A stretch of DNA of 32,256 nucleotides from Bacteroidales bacterium. GTDB lineage: Bacteria; Bacteroidota; Bacteroidia; Bacteroidales; M50B96. The notes under the pieces were generated by a model that was given only the letters and a program-made list of their open reading frames with translations, did not search any database and was not told where the DNA came from. Positions within the stretch are counted from its first letter, which is position 1; each line of letters begins with the position of its first letter. The stretch spans positions 1 through 32,256 of the forward strand of contig JAGYLP010000022.1 of the NCBI GenBank assembly GCA_018401015.1, read 5' to 3'. This document shows positions 21,103-31,835 of the stretch, in pieces. The position numbers and the translations under genes were made by a program.

Positions 21103-22620
21103 ATGAAAGCTTATCATGCTTTGCTAGGCTTGCTCTTTGCAGGCTTACTGTATTCCTGCCAGCCACATTCTCATTCGAACGACGATCACCATCAAAACGA
21201 GGATCATTCGCACGAAGTTGTTCCCCTAATGTTAACGAGCTATTCCCAAAACTTCGAGCTCTTTGCCGAAGCTGAACCGCTCGTCGTGAATCAATCATCC
21301 GAAGTCTTGGCTCATTTTACCCATTTAGCCAACTTCAAACCCTTCGATGGCGAATTAACTGCTATCAATCTGACTCAAGACGATCATACTACAGCTGCTC
21401 AAGAAATCAATAAAATTAAACCCGGAATTTTTCGGTTTCAGCTTACTCCGAAGCAAGCCGGCAAGCAGGAAGTAGAATTTATAATGAAAGATCAAGCTGG
21501 AGATTACTCCTTCCGGTTAGACTTGATCGTTTCAGCCACGAAACCAGAAGCGGATGAAATTGCTGAATCCTCTCAAGTAAACGTTTCCGATGCGCAGTTT
21601 TTTTCGAAAGAACAGTCCTGGAAAATCGATTTTGCAACGGATTATCCACAGCTAAGCCAACAAGGTCCTCAAATAATAGCGACTGCCAAACTATCTCCCT
21701 TGCCCTCCATGGTAGCTACCATTCATGCAGGTATTTCAGGTATAATAAGCGATCCTGACAACAAGCTCTTTCCTGGTCGTAAGGTGGAAAAAGGAGAGGC
21801 TTTAGCCTGGTTAAAAGGAAATCTATTGGCCGATGAATCCATTCAGCTTCGAATGGCCCAGGCACGTAAACAATGGGAAAAAGCGGAACAAGATTTTTTA
21901 CGGGTAACGTCCTTGCGTGAGGAAAAAATCGTTTCGGAACGCGAATTTCTCGATGCACAGCTCGCTTATCATTTAGCCGAAAATGAATGGCTCAATTTGG
22001 AACGAAGTTATCAACCCGAAGGGCAGAGACTAATAGCAACGGAGTCGGGTCGATTGCATCGTGTATATGTCGAATCGGGAGAGTATGCCGAGGCTGGTCA
22101 GGCTCTCTTTGCGATCGACCCGGGAAGCCACTTGCTGCTTGAAGCTGAAATGGCACCACGTTACCGAAAAAGCCTGGATCGAATAGCATCGATTGAACTG
22201 AAAACCACTGATGGAGCGTATTTTTTATCCGAAAGTTTGGATTGGAACGTGCTAAGTATAGGATCTTCCACCCAATCCGACAATTTCCTGCTACCGGTTA
22301 GCATCGCTGTTCGATCTCATCCCGACCTACTCCCCGGAACCTTTGTTGAGTTAATGATTCGCACGGAAGGTGAAGTCGAGCATTTAATCGTTCCCCAATC
22401 GGCTTTAGTCGAGCAACAGGGAAATTATTTTGTGTATGTTCAGCATCATCCTGAATCGTTCGAGAAAAGGTTGGTTCAGGTTTCAAGCTTGTATGGACAG
22501 GATGCTATCATAAATGCAGGCTTGCAGCCCAACGAGCGCCTGGTAACCCGTGGTGCCATCATGCTAAAGTTAGCCGAAGCAAGTGGCGGATTAGATGCTC
22601 ATGCAGGTCACGTACATTAG
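21103..22620 (+). CDS. Periplasmic adaptor lipoprotein of heavy-metal RND efflux (CusB/CzcB-like)
   Basis: The protein has 505 residues, with a lipoprotein signal ending LLYS-C19. The mature N-terminus is His-rich (PHSHSNDDHHQNEDHSHE) and the C-terminus ends in DAHAGHVH. A beta domain at about 40-145 (FTHLANFKPFDGELTAINL) resembles the YtkA-like or extended N-terminal domain of Bacteroidota adaptors. Next come the split lipoyl/barrel-sandwich halves around a helical hairpin (about 245-310: RMAQARKQWEKAEQDFLRVT). The beta-barrel and membrane-proximal domains close the protein. It bridges the inner-membrane pump and outer-membrane channel; the His tracts may bind the exported metal. It is the first gene of a three-gene operon. 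Confidence 0.9.
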   Translation: MKAYHALLGLLFAGLLYSCQPHSHSNDDHHQNEDHSHEVVPLMLTSYSQNFELFAEAEPLVVNQSSEVLAHFTHLANFKPFDGELTAINLTQDDHTTAAQEINKIKPGIFRFQLTPKQAGKQEVEFIMKDQAGDYSFRLDLIVSATKPEADEIAESSQVNVSDAQFFSKEQSWKIDFATDYPQLSQQGPQIIATAKLSPLPSMVATIHAGISGIISDPDNKLFPGRKVEKGEALAWLKGNLLADESIQLRMAQARKQWEKAEQDFLRVTSLREEKIVSEREFLDAQLAYHLAENEWLNLERSYQPEGQRLIATESGRLHRVYVESGEYAEAGQALFAIDPGSHLLLEAEMAPRYRKSLDRIASIELKTTDGAYFLSESLDWNVLSIGSSTQSDNFLLPVSIAVRSHPDLLPGTFVELMIRTEGEVEHLIVPQSALVEQQGNYFVYVQHHPESFEKRLVQVSSLYGQDAIINAGLQPNERLVTRGAIMLKLAEASGGLDAHAGHVH

Positions 22621-22632
22621 GAGGGAAGGAAT

Positions 22633-25600
22633 ATGTTAGATCGAATCATTCATTTTTCGCTCCACAACAAATACCTCGTGTTAATTATTGGGGTCATTTT
22701 AATGGCAGTAGGATTGCGCACTTCCGTTAACATGGATGTGGATGTTTTTCCCGATTTAACCGCTCCTACGGTGGTGGTTATGACCGACGCACATGGAATG
22801 GCTTCGGAAGAGGTAGAGCGCCTGGTTACATTTCCCATTGAAACGGTGGTAAATGGTTCTACGGGTGTACGGCGTGTTCGCTCGGCTTCGGCTCAAGGCT
22901 TTTCTTTCGTATGGGTCGAATTCGATTGGGGCACAGATATTTACAAAGCTCGTCAGGTGGTAAGCGAAAAGCTCATCCAAATAAGTGCACAAATGCCTTT
23001 GGGAGTGAGCCAACCCATGCTAGCCCCTCAATCGAGTATTATGGGGGAAATTTTCTTTGTCGGTTTACAAGCTGACTCTACCTCGCTCATGGAATTGCGC
23101 ACCTTAGCTGAATGGAGCATCAAACCCTTGATTTTGTCAACGGGTGGTGTTTCCCAGGTGAGCATCATTGGTGGCGAATACAAGGAATATCAGGTTTTAC
23201 TCGACCCGGAAAAAATGGCCTTCTATGGAGTTGGTTTAAACGAGGTTGCGGAAGTATGCCGAGGTATTGGAAGGAATGCACCTGGGGGCGTAGTACGCCA
23301 GTTTGGGAATGAGTTTACCGTGAGGGGAATTGCCCGGACAGCTGACCTCGATGAGTTGGCATCCACTTTTATCAAAATGCGCGGAAATAAATCGATTGTA
23401 CTGGGAGATGTGGCGGTGGTGCAAATAGGTGCGGCCCCCAAAATGGGAACTGCAGCCGGCAACGGAGAGCCGGCGGTTATCATGGCTATTTCCAAACAAC
23501 CCGGCACCAATACTTTACAATTAACCGAAGCCATTGAAACAAATCTGGAAGCGCTCAAAACGTCATTACCTCCCGATGTTCAGTTGAATACCCATATTTT
23601 CCGGCAGGCCGATTTCATCGAAGCATCGGTAAACAATGTTCAAAAAGCTTTAATCGAAGGAAGTATTTTTGTCGTAATCATCTTATTCCTGTTTCTCCAA
23701 AGTTTCAGAACCACCATTATTTCCCTTATAGCCATTCCTATTTCATTGCTCGGAGCAGTACTCGTTTTGAACGCTTTGGGAATGTCGATTAACACTATGA
23801 GTCTGGGAGGAATGGCCATTGCGATTGGTTCCCTGGTGGACGATGCCATTATTGATGTGGAGAACGTTTATAAACGATTGCGTCAAAACCGGCAGCTTCC
23901 TGATTATTTGCGTAAAAGTGCTCTCATGGTTGTGTACGACGCTTCGCGAGAGATTCGATCGTCTATTTTTAATGCTACCCTTATTATCATGGTTGCTTTT
24001 GTGCCACTCTTTTTCCTCTCAGGAATGGAAGGACGAATGCTCCAACCCTTGGGGATTTCTTTTCTGGTAGCCCTTTTTGTATCCCTTTTAGTAGCCATGA
24101 CGCTTACTCCGATTTTGGCTCAATGGCTTTTGTCGGATGAGGCTTATTTGCGTAAAAATGAAAAGGATAATCGATTTGTGCAAACCTTGATGCGCGCTTA
24201 CACGCAGTCGCTCACCCGTGTTTTGAACCATCGGTTTCTCGTTTTAGGAAGCATTATCGTTTTATTTATTGCCTCCCTATGGGTATTTTCAGGATTAGGA
24301 CGTAGTTTCCTTCCTGAGTTTAACGAAGGGTCCTTAACCATATCGCTCATCACTCAGCCGGGTACCTCGCTCGACGAAAGCGATCGCATAGGGAGCATTG
24401 TAGAGCGTGAGCTACTGAGCATTCCGGAAGTTCAGAGTACGGCCCGCAGAACGGGTCGAGGCGAACTCGACGAACACTCACAGGCTACGAATAGTGCCGA
24501 ACTCGATGTTAATTTCGATTTGGCCGAACGTTCGCATGCCGAATTCATGGAATCGGTTCGACAAACGCTGGGTCAAATTCCGGGTATTGCCTTTACGGTC
24601 GGACAGCCCTTAGGTCATCGCATCGATCACATGCTAAGCGGTACCCGAGCGAACATCGCTATCAAGATTTTCGGAGAAGATTTGCCCTTGCTTTATCAAG
24701 TGGGGAAAGAGATTGAATCGAAAATTCAGGGTGTTGAAGGACTGGTAGATATATCGGTCGATCAGCAAATTGAAGTGCCCCAATTGCTTATTCGTCCCGA
24801 TCGGGAACGACTTGCTCGTGCCGGCATTTCGATGCAAAGTTTTACCGATTTTGTTGAAATCGCCTATGGTGGAGAAAAAATGGCCGATATCTACGAGAAT
24901 CAACGTCGATTCGACTTAGTGGTTCGTTTCGAGGAAGATTATACTTCGCATATCGACGGAATAAAGAATGGTTTAATCGACACCTACGATGGGCGAAAAA
25001 TACCCCTATCTGAAGTCGCAGAAGTACGATCGCTCATGGGGCCAAGTACGATAACCCGCGAGAATGTTCACCGGAAATTAGTGGTATCCGCCAATGTTGC
25101 CGGTCGCGATTTACGCAGCGTGGTTCAGGATATTCAACAGGAAATAATGAATCATGTAGCTCTTCCCGAAGGGTATCGGATTGAGTACGGAGGACAATTC
25201 GAAAGCGAAGAAAAAGCTTCCAGAACCTTACTGCTCACCTCTATATTGGCTATTCTGGTTATTTTCTTCCTGCTATATCAGGAATTTCGAAGCTTTCGTT
25301 TAGCAGGATTAATTCTATTAAATCTTCCCTTAGCCCTGATTGGTGGAATTTTGTCGGTTTGGATTACTTCCGGAAGCTTGAGCATTCCGGCTATTATCGG
25401 GTTCATTACCTTGTTTGGGATAGCTACTCGAAATGGAATCTTGCTCGTTTCCAATTATCAGCGACTGCAAGCTTCCGGAACTCCCTTAACCGAAACCTTA
25501 ATCCAAGGGTCGGCCGATAGGCTAAATGCCATTCTAATGACTGCCCTTACGGCCGCGTTGGCCCTTATCCCACTGGCCTTGCAAGGTGATTTATCGGGGA

Positions 25601-25737
25601 ATGAAATTCAAAGCCCAATGGCTAAAGTAATTTTGGGTGGATTGCTCAGTTCTACTCTTTTGAATATCTATATTTTACCGGTCGTGTATAGTTTCTTTAA
25701 CCCGAAGGTACAACCTTCTCAAACTGTCGAATCATGA
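22633..25737 (+). CDS. Heavy-metal efflux RND pump (CusA/CzcA family)
   Basis: The 1034-residue protein has two sets of a transmembrane helix, a large periplasmic loop and five to six helices. The TM4 motif is AIAIGSLVDDAIIDVENVYK (about 395-414), with Asp403/404 and Glu410 in the positions of the proton-relay region (CusA Asp405). HRIDHMLSGTRANIAIKIFG in the second porter domain resembles CusA's Met-containing RIDMLxTG rather than CzcA's FNELIAG. This favours Cu/Ag or a related soft metal, but the VDDA motif differs from CusA (VDAA) and from the CzcA DGAVV type, so substrate is unsure. GGAGGGAAGGAAT lies before the ATG, 12 bases after the adaptor stop. The downstream gene overlaps its stop by 4 bases. 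Confidence 0.92.
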   Translation: MLDRIIHFSLHNKYLVLIIGVILMAVGLRTSVNMDVDVFPDLTAPTVVVMTDAHGMASEEVERLVTFPIETVVNGSTGVRRVRSASAQGFSFVWVEFDWGTDIYKARQVVSEKLIQISAQMPLGVSQPMLAPQSSIMGEIFFVGLQADSTSLMELRTLAEWSIKPLILSTGGVSQVSIIGGEYKEYQVLLDPEKMAFYGVGLNEVAEVCRGIGRNAPGGVVRQFGNEFTVRGIARTADLDELASTFIKMRGNKSIVLGDVAVVQIGAAPKMGTAAGNGEPAVIMAISKQPGTNTLQLTEAIETNLEALKTSLPPDVQLNTHIFRQADFIEASVNNVQKALIEGSIFVVIILFLFLQSFRTTIISLIAIPISLLGAVLVLNALGMSINTMSLGGMAIAIGSLVDDAIIDVENVYKRLRQNRQLPDYLRKSALMVVYDASREIRSSIFNATLIIMVAFVPLFFLSGMEGRMLQPLGISFLVALFVSLLVAMTLTPILAQWLLSDEAYLRKNEKDNRFVQTLMRAYTQSLTRVLNHRFLVLGSIIVLFIASLWVFSGLGRSFLPEFNEGSLTISLITQPGTSLDESDRIGSIVERELLSIPEVQSTARRTGRGELDEHSQATNSAELDVNFDLAERSHAEFMESVRQTLGQIPGIAFTVGQPLGHRIDHMLSGTRANIAIKIFGEDLPLLYQVGKEIESKIQGVEGLVDISVDQQIEVPQLLIRPDRERLARAGISMQSFTDFVEIAYGGEKMADIYENQRRFDLVVRFEEDYTSHIDGIKNGLIDTYDGRKIPLSEVAEVRSLMGPSTITRENVHRKLVVSANVAGRDLRSVVQDIQQEIMNHVALPEGYRIEYGGQFESEEKASRTLLLTSILAILVIFFLLYQEFRSFRLAGLILLNLPLALIGGILSVWITSGSLSIPAIIGFITLFGIATRNGILLVSNYQRLQASGTPLTETLIQGSADRLNAILMTALTAALALIPLALQGDLSGNEIQSPMAKVILGGLLSSTLLNIYILPVVYSFFNPKVQPSQTVES

Positions 25738-26966
25738 ACATGAATCATTCTATGAAACGACCCATCGTTATTCAATTTTTTCGCATAAGCCTGGTGCTGT
25801 CGAGCTTGTTCTTGATTAATAGTGCTTGGGGCCAGACTCCTCAAGCCTTAAAAAACCTGATTGATGAACTGCAGGGTAATAGTTTGAGCCTGAAGTCCAT
25901 TCATACTGCCGAAGAGGCCAATCGGTTGGAATATCAAACGAATCTCTTCTTGCCCAATCCGGAGCTGGGGTTCAATTATTTGTGGAGCAGTCCGGTAGCC
26001 ATGGGTAATCGTCGTGACGTATCCTTGGTGCAACGATTCGATTTTCCAACAGCTTATATTTATCGTTCCGATTTATCGGATTTGCAGATTAAACAATCCA
26101 TACTAGCGGAGGATTTAGCAGCTCTCGAAATGCGCTACGAGATTAGTCTTTTGTATTATGAACTGGTGTATCGAGGGCAGATGGAACAGGAATGGTCCGT
26201 ACTCGAAGAACATGCCGAGCAGCTCACTCAAGCCTACCAACAGCGTTTGGATGCTGGCGATATCGGATTAATGGAGTTGCATAAAGTGGAATTAAACGGC
26301 TTAAAGGTTGCGAACCAGCGGAATAGTCTTCAAACAGAGATCGATCAACTCTTACTGGATTTGAAAGTCAGAAACGGAGGAAAATTAGTAGAGCTAAATG
26401 CTTCTGAGTGGGATTTGGTGAGTTTGCCCGCTTCGTTCGATGATTATTACCTTGAATTGCGAGCAAAGAATCCCCTTTTAATGCAATTAGAAAATGGGAT
26501 TTCGATGGCTCAGAAACAAGTTCAACTGCAGAAGGCTTTGCGTCTGCCGCGATGGTCGGCCGGATACATGGATGAATACACCGTTTTTCAAAATGTGCAA
26601 GGAATCAGTGTGGGGATGACACTGCCTTTATGGGAGCAAAAAAATAAGGTTAAATGGGCAAAGGCCAATCAGTTAGCTGCTGAATCGGCTCTGGAGGAAT
26701 ATGAATTATATTTTCGGGTAGAGGCTGAAAAAGCCTATCGGACTGCTTTGAAACTGGATGCTCAAATCCGTTTATTTGAGGAAAAAATGGCTCAACTAAA
26801 CCAACTCGATCGGCTGGGAAAAGCACTTGATAGTGGACAAATATCCTTGATGGAATACTTGTTCGAAATCAATTTTTACACCGAGAATACCATGAGCTTA
26901 TTGAAGTTGAAGCGCGATTTGCGCATTGCCTGGGTTAATCTGCATCGGTTTTCAGCATTGGATTAA
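25734..26966 (+). CDS. Outer-membrane efflux protein (TolC/CusC-like)
   Basis: A 410-residue protein with a signal peptide ending near NSAWGQ; in-frame ATGs at codons 1, 3 and 7 leave the start slightly uncertain. Two internally similar halves of long helices (SIHTAEEANRLEYQTNLFLP and MAQKQVQLQKALRLPRWSAG) are separated by barrel strands, as in TolC family members. It forms the outer-membrane and periplasmic tunnel for the RND pump. The ATGA overlap with the pump stop shows coupled translation. Its end overlaps the convergent TrmH-family gene by 4 bases. Confidence 0.9.
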   Translation: MNMNHSMKRPIVIQFFRISLVLSSLFLINSAWGQTPQALKNLIDELQGNSLSLKSIHTAEEANRLEYQTNLFLPNPELGFNYLWSSPVAMGNRRDVSLVQRFDFPTAYIYRSDLSDLQIKQSILAEDLAALEMRYEISLLYYELVYRGQMEQEWSVLEEHAEQLTQAYQQRLDAGDIGLMELHKVELNGLKVANQRNSLQTEIDQLLLDLKVRNGGKLVELNASEWDLVSLPASFDDYYLELRAKNPLLMQLENGISMAQKQVQLQKALRLPRWSAGYMDEYTVFQNVQGISVGMTLPLWEQKNKVKWAKANQLAAESALEEYELYFRVEAEKAYRTALKLDAQIRLFEEKMAQLNQLDRLGKALDSGQISLMEYLFEINFYTENTMSLLKLKRDLRIAWVNLHRFSALD

Positions 26967-28925: not shown

Positions 28926-29900
28926 TTACGATGGTTGATTAGGATTGCTTAAATCGATAATAAAGCCTTCCATCCCAACAATGGAATCGCCATCGATAAT
29001 GGGATTGGCTGTAAGAACATGTTCTCCTTTGCTTCCATCGAAGCATAAGCGGGTAACTTTAAGGCCACTGACTGAATTTCCCTTGAAAACTTGATTTATA
29101 ATATTTTGAAGTTGAGCTTGTTCGGTGGGGCATCGGGTAATACTCACGGGTTTACCGAGGTAATGTTCTGCTTGATCGGTTCGATACATTTTTAACCAGG
29201 CATCGTTAACGTCTTCGATGATGCCGTCGATGTTGAGTCGATAATAACCTGCTGAACTGTCTTTAACTGCCTGTGCCGAATGTTCTTTTTGGAATTGCTC
29301 CGGATCCACGTCCACACTTTCCCATCCGGTAATCATGGCTTTAATGCTGGTAAGAGGTGCTTCGCCGGTAGTGGTCAAATAGATGTGAGCAATCACAAAG
29401 GCGATGAATAAAAAGGCGACAAAGGTGTGAATAATGGCAATGGTGCCATGCGATTCAACCTGGATGATATCGGAAGGATATAAAAAACTCAGATAGATAA
29501 GTCCGGTGATGATTTGAGCCGGGAAAATGACCGTTTTCAGTCCTAGATAGATTAATCGTTGCAAGGGATTAAATTTCGTGTAAACGGTTTTATGGGTGGG
29601 GTGGGGAGCACCTTTGAATATACCGGTGAGGTAATAGGCTGCCTGAGCTTTTATAAATCGGGTGGTTGGAATGTACTGCCGCCATTCGCCGGTTACAAAA
29701 TGCCAAAAGATGGCAAAAATGATGAGTACAATGAGGGCAATCGATGCCAAGTTGTGCCATAGCACAGCAGCCTCAAATCCGAGTAATTGGTAATTTCCGT
29801 GCATTTCGAAACCGGTTAACATCAGAAATAATATGAGAGCAGCCTGACTCCAGTGCCAGAAGCGCTCAAAAGCTTGGTAGATATAGGTATTTCTTTTCAT
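28926..29900 (-). CDS. Membrane cytochrome b (hydrogenase/thiosulfate-reductase type) with C-terminal PAS domain
   Basis: The 324-residue protein has residues 1-195 as a four- or five-helix cytochrome b of the Ni-Fe hydrogenase/cyt b561 type: FERFWHWSQAALILFLMLTG with H16, LWHN with H49, H67, then IIHTF and AHIYL (H158, H172). From about 215 to 318 a soluble PAS domain follows (SAGYYRLNIDGIIEDVNDAW, then EGFIIDLSN). The b-type unit should pass electrons between the quinone pool and the octaheme protein encoded 91 bases upstream. The PAS domain is not part of the usual family and could sense redox state or a ligand, or tether a partner. No frameshift is needed to read through the junction, so the fusion is real in the sequence. 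Confidence 0.85.
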   Translation of the reverse strand: MKRNTYIYQAFERFWHWSQAALILFLMLTGFEMHGNYQLLGFEAAVLWHNLASIALIVLIIFAIFWHFVTGEWRQYIPTTRFIKAQAAYYLTGIFKGAPHPTHKTVYTKFNPLQRLIYLGLKTVIFPAQIITGLIYLSFLYPSDIIQVESHGTIAIIHTFVAFLFIAFVIAHIYLTTTGEAPLTSIKAMITGWESVDVDPEQFQKEHSAQAVKDSSAGYYRLNIDGIIEDVNDAWLKMYRTDQAEHYLGKPVSITRCPTEQAQLQNIINQVFKGNSVSGLKVTRLCFDGSKGEHVLTANPIIDGDSIVGMEGFIIDLSNPNQPS

Positions 29901-29991: not shown

Positions 29992-31620
29992 TTATTTCGT
30001 TTGCGATCGATTCGATTTGCTTAAGATTCGAATGATAGAGTGAATAGTAACTCCAATTAATGAAAGAAGAATGATGCCGATGCCAATTCGATCGAGCATG
30101 GCATGTCGATCTCTCCCAATGAGGTAAAAATCGTTCAGTTCACTTAATCGTCCGTTTGAATCGTGACATTCGATGCAAGTTAGGGATTGTTCACGAGGTG
30201 CCACCATATGGTTGATGGGCCAGGTCATTTCGCTTGCAATGAATCCATATTCGCCACTGTAGGCTAAACCCGTTGCTTCGGCTCCAGCCTTTGCCGCTTT
30301 ATGCCAATCGAAATGGGTCCAAAAAGCCGTGGAATCTTTTCCAAATAAATGAGGATTAATCAAATACTCGTTTTGAACATCGTAAATGATGTTGGCTCGA
30401 TGAACTTTAACCGGGATAATTTTAGACCGTTTATCGGCATAAGACCCCTGCAAAGGGTTCATATTCAAGGTTTCGTTAGGATTAACCGGGTCGCCCAATA
30501 CGTAATGGTCGGCGATCCCGTTAAACCAGCGGTATTCAGGCTCCACGTTTTTAGCCCAGGTGAAATCTCCCTTCATGGAGTGATAAATGATGTTACCCAT
30601 CGAATCTTTTTTGACAACCATGGAGCCATCGGGGTTTAATTTGCCTGCGGTAGACCAGTCCCAGCTCATTTTAGTAGCACTCACTTTTGCATATTCCGGG
30701 ATATGACAGGTTTGACAATCGACCCTGGCCGAATGCAGGTTTAGAATTTCATTTGCGTGAGGATTAGCCGAATGACATCCGGAACAACCTATCCGGTTTG
30801 TGTCTTGCGAAGCAATTGAATAAAGACTTCCGGAAATTGCATGCTCTTCGGTACGATGGCAATCGACACAACTCATTCCGGCTCCATCGCTAGCCATGTG
30901 GACATCCACTTCGCGTGTAACCTCCTTTAATTCAGTGGCAATGTCGCCATGCTTCACATTATTACCCCCTCCGCCAACAAAATGACAGGCTCCACAATTT
31001 TCAATGCGCGGACTCCCAATGTTCTGAGCAATGTGTCGGTAATCGGGTGGCATAAATTCTTCGCCGGCACTTGTTTTTTTCTCCGTAACCGGATAGCCGG
31101 CACCCGATGGAAATTTCTTATACGTATCGGTTTGGTCGTGACAAACCAAGCAGTCGATTTTTCGTTCTTCGGAAAAATCGAAGCCATCGTCTTTCCAACC
31201 ATAACCGATATGGCAACTGGTGCACCGGGGTTCATTTGATTGAATGCCAATACAGAAATTATTGAGGATATTTTTCTTACCCAATTGAATGGTATCGCCA
31301 TTTTCGGTAACGTACTCACGCGACCAGGTCCAATGCGAGGTTTGCATTACTTCTTGGGCGGTTGTATTGTGGCAATACAAGCATGCTTCCGTTACTTGCT
31401 CCGGTGTTTCGAATTCTTGCTGGAGCAGACTGTATTGCGAATGATCCGGTCCTTGTTTTTTCTGACTGGGCTCACGAATAAGGGTTACCTCCTTCGCTTT
31501 GTTATTTAGTCTAATATTCTGAATGTAATAATAGCCCAAAATCCAGGGAAGTAGAAGGGCCGCAAACAGACCTAGAACGCTCCAGAAACGAGCAGTAGAT
31601 TGATTTTTAAACAGATTCAT
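29992..31620 (-). CDS. Octaheme c-type cytochrome, tetrathionate reductase (Otr) family
   Basis: This is a 542-residue protein with eight CxxCH heme sites, beginning near residues 80, 133, 157, 209, 251, 279, 302 and 482. The long gap between the seventh and eighth, and the size, match Otr of Shewanella, which reduces tetrathionate and in vitro nitrite and hydroxylamine. An N-terminal helix (WSVLGLFAALLLPWILGYYY) and a C-terminal one (IGIGIILLSLIGVTIHSIIR) anchor it in the membrane with hemes in the periplasm; soluble Otr lacks the second. In life the substrate is uncertain. It starts 2 bases after the small metal-binding protein and is followed by its likely electron partner, cytochrome b. 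Confidence 0.9.
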   Translation of the reverse strand: MNLFKNQSTARFWSVLGLFAALLLPWILGYYYIQNIRLNNKAKEVTLIREPSQKKQGPDHSQYSLLQQEFETPEQVTEACLYCHNTTAQEVMQTSHWTWSREYVTENGDTIQLGKKNILNNFCIGIQSNEPRCTSCHIGYGWKDDGFDFSEERKIDCLVCHDQTDTYKKFPSGAGYPVTEKKTSAGEEFMPPDYRHIAQNIGSPRIENCGACHFVGGGGNNVKHGDIATELKEVTREVDVHMASDGAGMSCVDCHRTEEHAISGSLYSIASQDTNRIGCSGCHSANPHANEILNLHSARVDCQTCHIPEYAKVSATKMSWDWSTAGKLNPDGSMVVKKDSMGNIIYHSMKGDFTWAKNVEPEYRWFNGIADHYVLGDPVNPNETLNMNPLQGSYADKRSKIIPVKVHRANIIYDVQNEYLINPHLFGKDSTAFWTHFDWHKAAKAGAEATGLAYSGEYGFIASEMTWPINHMVAPREQSLTCIECHDSNGRLSELNDFYLIGRDRHAMLDRIGIGIILLSLIGVTIHSIIRILSKSNRSQTK

Positions 31621-31622
31621 CC

Positions 31623-31835
31623 TTATTTTTTTAAAAGTTCTTCCCGAATCATTTTATGTCCGCAATTCGGACAATGGAGGGTGGTGCATTTTACTCCCTG
31701 TATGTGCTCGACCCGCGTGCCACACGCATGACAAGCACAAAAACCTCCTGGTCCTTTTGAGCCTCCGCCATTTTTTCCTTTACCTTCATGTGCCCCTTTT
31801 TCGCCATGTTCATGTGAATGATGATTTCCGTCCAT
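31623..31835 (-). CDS. His-rich small protein with zinc-ribbon-like Cys motifs
   Basis: A 70-residue protein. Residues 1-32 are His/Gly/Lys-rich (DGNHHSHEHGEKGAHEGKGK), and the second half has CACHACG followed by CPNCG. This gives two CxxC pairs plus extra Cys and His that can hold zinc or another metal. No signal peptide or membrane helix is visible, so it is probably cytoplasmic. Its stop is 2 bases from the octaheme cytochrome start, so it is co-translated. A role in heme or metal delivery is plausible but unproven. Confidence 0.65.
   Translation of the reverse strand: MDGNHHSHEHGEKGAHEGKGKNGGGSKGPGGFCACHACGTRVEHIQGVKCTTLHCPNCGHKMIREELLKK

Follow-up and report, generated by a model that had tools for sequence, protein, structure and literature searches.

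A cytochrome b–PAS fusion encoded next to an octaheme tetrathionate-reductase-family cytochrome c in Bacteroidales may place a sensor-type domain directly on a respiratory electron carrier

Cytochromes b of the FdnI and PhsC kind, members of Pfam family PF01292, link quinone to a periplasmic enzyme by electron transfer, and to our knowledge neither FdnI nor PhsC carries a PAS tail. The usual outputs of sensor domains are kinases, cyclases or transcription factors, and we know of no fusion of the NifL-type FAD-PAS or of the PAS protein of structure 3lyx to a respiratory subunit. The excerpted literature on octaheme cytochromes c of the tetrathionate reductase (OTR) type names tetrathionate, nitrite and hydroxylamine as substrates reduced by the characterised enzymes (PMC4484225). 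According to excerpts of further reports, an octaheme protein of Beggiatoaceae, whose kinship to the OTR described here is not established, reduced tetrathionate faster than nitrite (PMC6449678), and Caldithrix abyssi possesses an OTR gene while its predicted respiration of sulfur compounds was unsupported by growth tests (PMC5317091). A pairing of OTR with cytochrome b was proposed earlier for TDIS_1882/TDIS_1883 of Thermosulfurimonas dismutans; it is the same kind of gene pair as the one analysed here, and the excerpted text on it mentions no PAS domain (PMC4911364). Both domains and the cytochrome–OTR pair were already known, while their combination in one protein and its tandem forms were not found described: among the papers listed by searches of open-licence PubMed Central, none describes a cytochrome b–PAS or an octaheme–PAS fusion in its title or abstract start.

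The DNA analysed (hereafter the window) is a stretch of 32,256 nucleotides from a Bacteroidales contig. At positions 28926-29900 it holds, on the minus strand, a single intact open reading frame of 324 codons plus a stop codon, with no stop inside. The product matches the cytochrome b family PF01292 over residues 8-192 (E 2.8e-23, 83 bits against a Pfam cut-off of 30.1) and the PAS family PF00989 over residues 213-316 (E 2.2e-5, 24.9 bits, barely above the cut-off of 22.6). The initial sequence-only reading, that about 100 residues of PAS follow a cytochrome b without a frame break, is thus borne out by one uninterrupted frame with matches to both families. The PAS is the last element of the protein, with nothing after it but the stop codon (28926-28928, minus strand). 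A frame error or an assembly join is excluded by the intact frame and by identical architecture in many independent genomes, and a chance PAS match is excluded by structure and conservation. Pfam scans of two fusion proteins revealed neither a kinase nor any other output domain, and the frame lengths of the remaining fusion proteins leave scant space for one. A sequence search with the full protein against solved structures gave no credible match. The full-protein AlphaFold2 model, built from 55 aligned sequences, had a mean pLDDT of 81.6 and a pTM of 0.55, so the position of the cytochrome part relative to the PAS in it is unreliable.

The same fusion was found in 7 of the 60 genomes in a sample of relatives (own genome counted), which refutes the possibility that it occurs only here. 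Of 393 sampled genomes from the order, 42 matched the PAS subfamily at E 1e-14 or better, and all 42 were read; 38 of the 393 carry a cytochrome b followed by one to three PAS domains, and the other four of the 42 carry PAS-kinases (L030, L159-L161). In samples of wider taxonomic range the searches returned the own genome only, both for this PAS subfamily (E 1e-15 or better) in 198 genomes of the class and for a cytochrome b running into a PAS in 395 genomes of the phylum, where a cytochrome b was present in 53 and at most four candidates per genome were scored. The named loci discussed below are the best 80 of 580 matches to the fusion query in the GTDB species set; 52 of them have the fusion and 28 are PAS-less, a ratio that gives no prevalence because the loci were selected as the best matches to a fusion. 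Their 83 cytochrome b proteins comprise 27 with one PAS, 23 with two, 5 with three and 28 with none. All 52 fusion loci among these best 80 of 580 matches come from metagenome-assembled genomes, mostly labelled Bacteroidales or Bacteroidota, the labels otherwise being Flavobacteriaceae/Lutibacter (two), Chlorobiota (two) and Calditrichia (two). Two layouts occur: in the short-linker form, to which the window protein belongs, the PAS begins near residue 207, and in the long-linker form near residue 250. Among the matches listed, the nearest cytochrome b by identity (68%, locus L078) lacks a PAS, and since many cytochrome b homologues are without one, the PAS is dispensable in other lineages.

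The cytochrome b part (residues 1-205; 29286-29900, minus strand) was modelled and searched for related folds on its own, the fold search with the full model having listed PAS domains throughout. The separate model (pLDDT 86.6, pTM 0.79) was closest to FdnI (1kqf_C, Z 15.7, rmsd 2.8, 189 residues aligned), which was also the sole Foldseek match with an E value under 0.001; hydrogenase-1 cytochrome b (Z 12.4 and 11.8) and the E. coli superoxide oxidase (Z 11.9) were weaker. In the AlphaFold2 model four transmembrane helices span residues 10-34, 42-70, 112-139 and 151-175. His16 and His49 are present in 84 of 84 aligned rows, and His158 and His172 in 83 of the 83 rows having a residue there; by analogy with the FdnI family we take these four to be the ligands of two b hemes. 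The heme histidines and further polar residues are invariant in proteins with and without a PAS, which suggests an intact electron carrier. The protein shares its four transmembrane helices and its four conserved histidines with FdnI and PhsC, whose partner is an iron-sulfur/molybdenum enzyme, whereas the partner gene in the window encodes an octaheme cytochrome c. Among NCBIfam profiles, NF011582 (thiosulfate reductase cytochrome B subunit) scored highest, at 107.7 bits, which falls short of its cut-off of 204. The protein had been called a hydrogenase-type cytochrome b; this holds for the PF01292 match, where it is a matter of the Pfam name, and gives way to the FdnI fold and the better NF011582 score. 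A hydrogenase subunit was rejected, since the NiFe-hydrogenase cytochrome b profile TIGR02125 scored 45.7 bits, far under its cut-off of 121.5, and the adjoining gene encodes the octaheme cytochrome and not a hydrogenase.

This adjoining gene (29992-31620, minus strand, 542 aa) lies directly upstream of the fusion gene on the same strand. Its product is the octaheme reductase that the sequence-only reading had supposed, and belongs to the octaheme tetrathionate-reductase family: it scores 609 bits against TIGR04315 (cut-off 375), contains eight CxxCH motifs and aligns with the Shewanella OTR (1sp3_A) at E 1.6e-131, its Lys223 falling on Lys153, presumably the active-site ligand of the Shewanella enzyme. 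Among the best 80 of 580 matches an OTR gene accompanies 51 of 52 fusion loci and all 28 PAS-less loci, and the only fusion locus lacking it (L064) is cut by a contig end that leaves 99 bases ahead of the cytochrome b. The octaheme cytochrome is thus the likely catalytic partner of the cytochrome b–PAS protein. The window OTR ends in a hydrophobic helix carrying a histidine followed by an arginine, and the alignment with the Shewanella OTR ends before this helix. All 73 OTRs of at least 480 aa from the window and the loci among the best 80 of 580 matches have exactly eight CxxCH motifs; the C-terminal helix motif was found by pattern in 66 of these 73, and the histidine and arginine were recognised by eye in the other seven. 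The helix might pack against the cytochrome b. Just upstream of the OTR gene lies a small Cys/His-rich, zinc-ribbon-like reading frame (31623-31835, minus strand) whose zinc-ribbon matches stay below the cut-offs, and relatives of it occur near fusion genes in four of the fetched loci (L038, L040, L044 and L133); its membership in the OTR unit is uncertain. The contig ends 421 bases past it.

The two periplasmic loops of the cytochrome b contain no lysine or arginine, while the N-terminus contains three and the middle loop six. By the positive-inside rule these charges predict that the N-terminus and the C-terminus, with the PAS, lie on the cytoplasmic side of the membrane. In the model, helix 4 is linked to the PAS through a strand (193-197) and a helix (200-214).

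The reading that we favour, with a probability of roughly 0.45, is that the protein is a quinol-oxidising anchor for OTR whose cytoplasmic regulatory PAS acts on the cytochrome itself. The fusion gene would encode the membrane anchor of an OTR-type complex, in which a di-heme cytochrome b with four helices, similar in kind to FdnI and PhsC, would oxidise menaquinol and would hand the electrons to the periplasmic octaheme cytochrome, the pairing being shown by gene linkage and the route being presumed. The PAS, predicted to be attached at the cytoplasmic end of helix 4, could bind a cytoplasmic signal and change the activity or the assembly of the cytochrome, and electron flow into the reduction of sulfur compounds (or nitrite) would then be tuned post-translationally. 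We suggest tentatively that one to three PAS domains, of a type also present in histidine kinases, sense the state of the cell interior and act as a cytoplasmic governor, setting the rate of electron transfer from menaquinol to the octaheme cytochrome without transcription and through direct allosteric control. As no output domain follows the PAS, the fusion is not a classical signalling protein, and the missing output domain together with the rarity of kinase genes nearby favours an effect on the cytochrome over signalling. Gating of electron flow to the octaheme reductase, proposed at the outset from the sequence, agrees with the predicted topology and the absent output domain, and the gating itself is what we infer from them. 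The cell may regulate a respiratory enzyme directly through a built-in PAS; what is conserved here is a sensor-type domain devoid of an output module, attached to a respiratory cytochrome b on the side predicted to be cytoplasmic. If gating is true, post-translational control of an anaerobic respiratory complex would be open to direct testing here, and the homologues with no, one, two and three PAS domains form a natural series. The PAS tail moreover marks out one variant among OTR complexes.

The PAS module itself (residues 206-324; 28929-29285, minus strand) was assigned from PF00989, the AlphaFold2 model and fold matches. Its profile gave weak matches only to solved structures (best 3lyx, E 0.0092), and the PAS identity is nevertheless firm because of the structure and the conservation in relatives: both the profile cut-off is exceeded and a PAS fold is predicted, with block-mean pLDDT values of 92-96 across residues 221-310 of the full-protein model and 3lyx_A (CPS_1291) as the nearest solved fold (Z 17.1, rmsd 1.7, 116 residues aligned). 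The prediction of a PAS fold made at the start is hence confirmed. The NifL FAD-PAS (2gj3_A, Z 16.1) is a near fold neighbour and the EcDos heme PAS (1vb6_B, Z 14.7) a somewhat less close one, equally high scores being obtained with many PAS domains that bind other ligands or none. The window PAS thus has its fold in common with the NifL domain and 3lyx, while identity to them is only about 19%, and FAD in the window PAS is a candidate.

Across 89 PAS domains, G218, Y219, N232, W235, G274, R284, H294 and G312 are invariant; R256 is conserved in 97%, C286 in 77 of 89, and H251 in 91%, the window having a proline there. Copies from one-, two- and three-PAS proteins all retain Y219, N232, W235, R284 and H294. 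The axial histidine of FixL/Dos-type heme PAS domains sits in the F helix, and the photoactive cysteine of LOV domains is conserved in the E helix region. Neither a conserved histidine in the F helix (258-272) nor a conserved cysteine in the E region (249-257) was found across the 89 domains, which disfavours FixL/Dos-type heme and LOV flavin photochemistry as conserved features. The description of the PAS as redox-sensing is accordingly weakened to a possibility. Possible alternatives for the PAS are a flavin, the conserved cysteine C286, quinone-linked cysteine chemistry, a small or non-redox ligand and other modes of heme binding; quinone-linked cysteine chemistry is known from ArcB (a discussion passage in PMC6456745). 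Members of the PAS subfamily are also found in histidine kinases. The window PAS matches a histidine kinase with the order PocR-PAS-HisKA-HATPase (L030) at 57 bits, and the fusion-PAS profile matches four kinases (L030, L159-L161) at E values of 4.6e-36 to 5.9e-35. Kinases L030 and L116 share with the fusion PAS the Arg, Cys-Lys-Asp, His and E-G-F-x-I-D motifs. These five kinases (L030, L116 and L159-L161) have the same PAS subfamily, but with a kinase output and no cytochrome b.

PAS domains commonly dimerise, and the conserved module might instead serve assembly or docking, dimerising the cytochrome b or recruiting another PAS protein with neither ligand nor gating. The variation from one to three tandem copies would be expected of a surface more than of a single switch, and PAS-B dimer domains of the CLOCK/BMAL1 and ARNT type do occur among the fold matches. 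On the other hand, the invariance of Y219, W235, R284 and H294 suggests, weakly and from the alignment, a preserved interior or ligand site over a variable interface, and the Arg-Cys-His pattern common to the fusion PAS and the PAS of the histidine kinases L030 and L116 is a further weak argument in the same direction. We regard a docking role as somewhat unlikely.

The gene neighbourhoods point to sulfur compounds and also bear on the question of signalling. Among the best 80 of 580 matches, Rhodanese/YeeE2-type genes were found in 27 of 52 fusion loci and in 24 of 28 PAS-less loci, and YeeE1 (PF04143), of the sulfur transporter type, in 8 and 22 of them, respectively, so that the PAS-less OTR–cytochrome b loci have this neighbour more commonly than the fusion loci. 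In the own genome PF04143 genes are located elsewhere, on contigs C25 and C84. A molybdopterin PsrA-like gene was found in 8 of the 52 fusion loci and in none of the 28 without a PAS, again among the best 80 of 580 matches. All contrasts between loci with and without PAS are confounded by lineage, and many of the loci are cut by contig ends.

A different possibility is that the redox state of the cytochrome b heme or of the quinone is passed through the PAS to a separate regulator, which could be a kinase, a Crp/Fnr-type protein or a member of a family of about 237 aa (c5). Crp/Fnr-type genes occur in 15 of 52 and c5 genes in 12 of 52 fusion loci, with 0 of 28 PAS-less loci for both (best 80 of 580 matches), and the PAS subfamily is one also used by histidine kinases. 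Set against this, lineage confounds the contrast in Crp/Fnr-type and c5 genes; the fusion protein has no output domain; and a direct search with kinase sequences found kinase-like genes in 2 of the 52 fusion loci and in 5 of the 28 loci lacking a PAS among the best 80 of 580 matches, many of them cut by contig ends. Furthermore, no Crp-type gene was recognised by eye among the reading frames of the window, which reaches only to the contig end noted above, and the sole c5 relative found in the own genome is weak and lies on another contig (G000:C34:123836-124282). The one c5 member scanned (L074:3804-4517, minus strand) had no Pfam match, and another c5 relative was seen at L023, a PAS-less locus that is not one of the 28 counted above. 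We consider this signalling role unlikely, and the suggestion that the PAS reports redox state has become less likely likewise, as the protein ends after the PAS and kinase-like genes are so rare in the fusion loci.

On a cytochrome b tree of 86 rows, 2 changes suffice to explain the PAS label, compared with 23.7 when the labels are shuffled. The PAS-less protein of L078 branches as sister to the short-linker clade, which fits either one gain with one loss or two gains. The window protein falls in a set of 12 rows (support 97/81) in which all 11 others carry two PAS domains, and the single PAS of the window may hence be a secondary reduction. The first and second PAS domains of 17 short-linker two-PAS proteins lie on opposite sides of a branch with support 96/94; the window PAS is about equally similar to both in every 20-residue block, and its own branch is long.

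For 12 close pairs, dN/dS was 0.015-0.059 in the cytochrome part (9 pairs with measurable dS) and 0.018-0.088 in the C-terminal part (11 pairs with measurable dS), the latter being the higher in all 9 pairs measurable for both. C-terminal dS was below 1 in only 4 of the 11 pairs, with dN/dS of 0.043-0.088; most dS values approach or exceed saturation, so the ratios of pairs with C-terminal dS of at least 1 are rough. The C-terminal part is kept by purifying selection, with a constraint slightly below that of the cytochrome. That the PAS is a passive leftover of a sensor-kinase fusion that lost its kinase part, for which the presence of the subfamily in kinases could be cited, is therefore highly improbable in view of this selection, the tandem duplication with separately conserved first and second domains (96/94), and the occurrence of the fusion throughout one order, in 38 of its 393 genomes sampled.

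Apart from the cytochrome b–PAS protein, several other arrangements were seen. The own genome encodes a second cytochrome b (C49, L029:2882-3517, minus strand), 34% identical and without a PAS, in a cluster that by eye includes a multiheme cytochrome c, an Fe-S protein and an NrfD-like protein. Two further loci show by eye other fusions of a PF01292-like cytochrome b, which precedes a multiheme cytochrome c in a protein of 737 aa at L113:2848-5061 (plus strand) and follows one in a protein of 554 aa at L114:1180-2844 (plus strand). Elsewhere in the window, three reading frames in a row at 21103-26966 (plus strand) resemble by eye a heavy-metal RND efflux system composed of adaptor, pump and outer-membrane channel.
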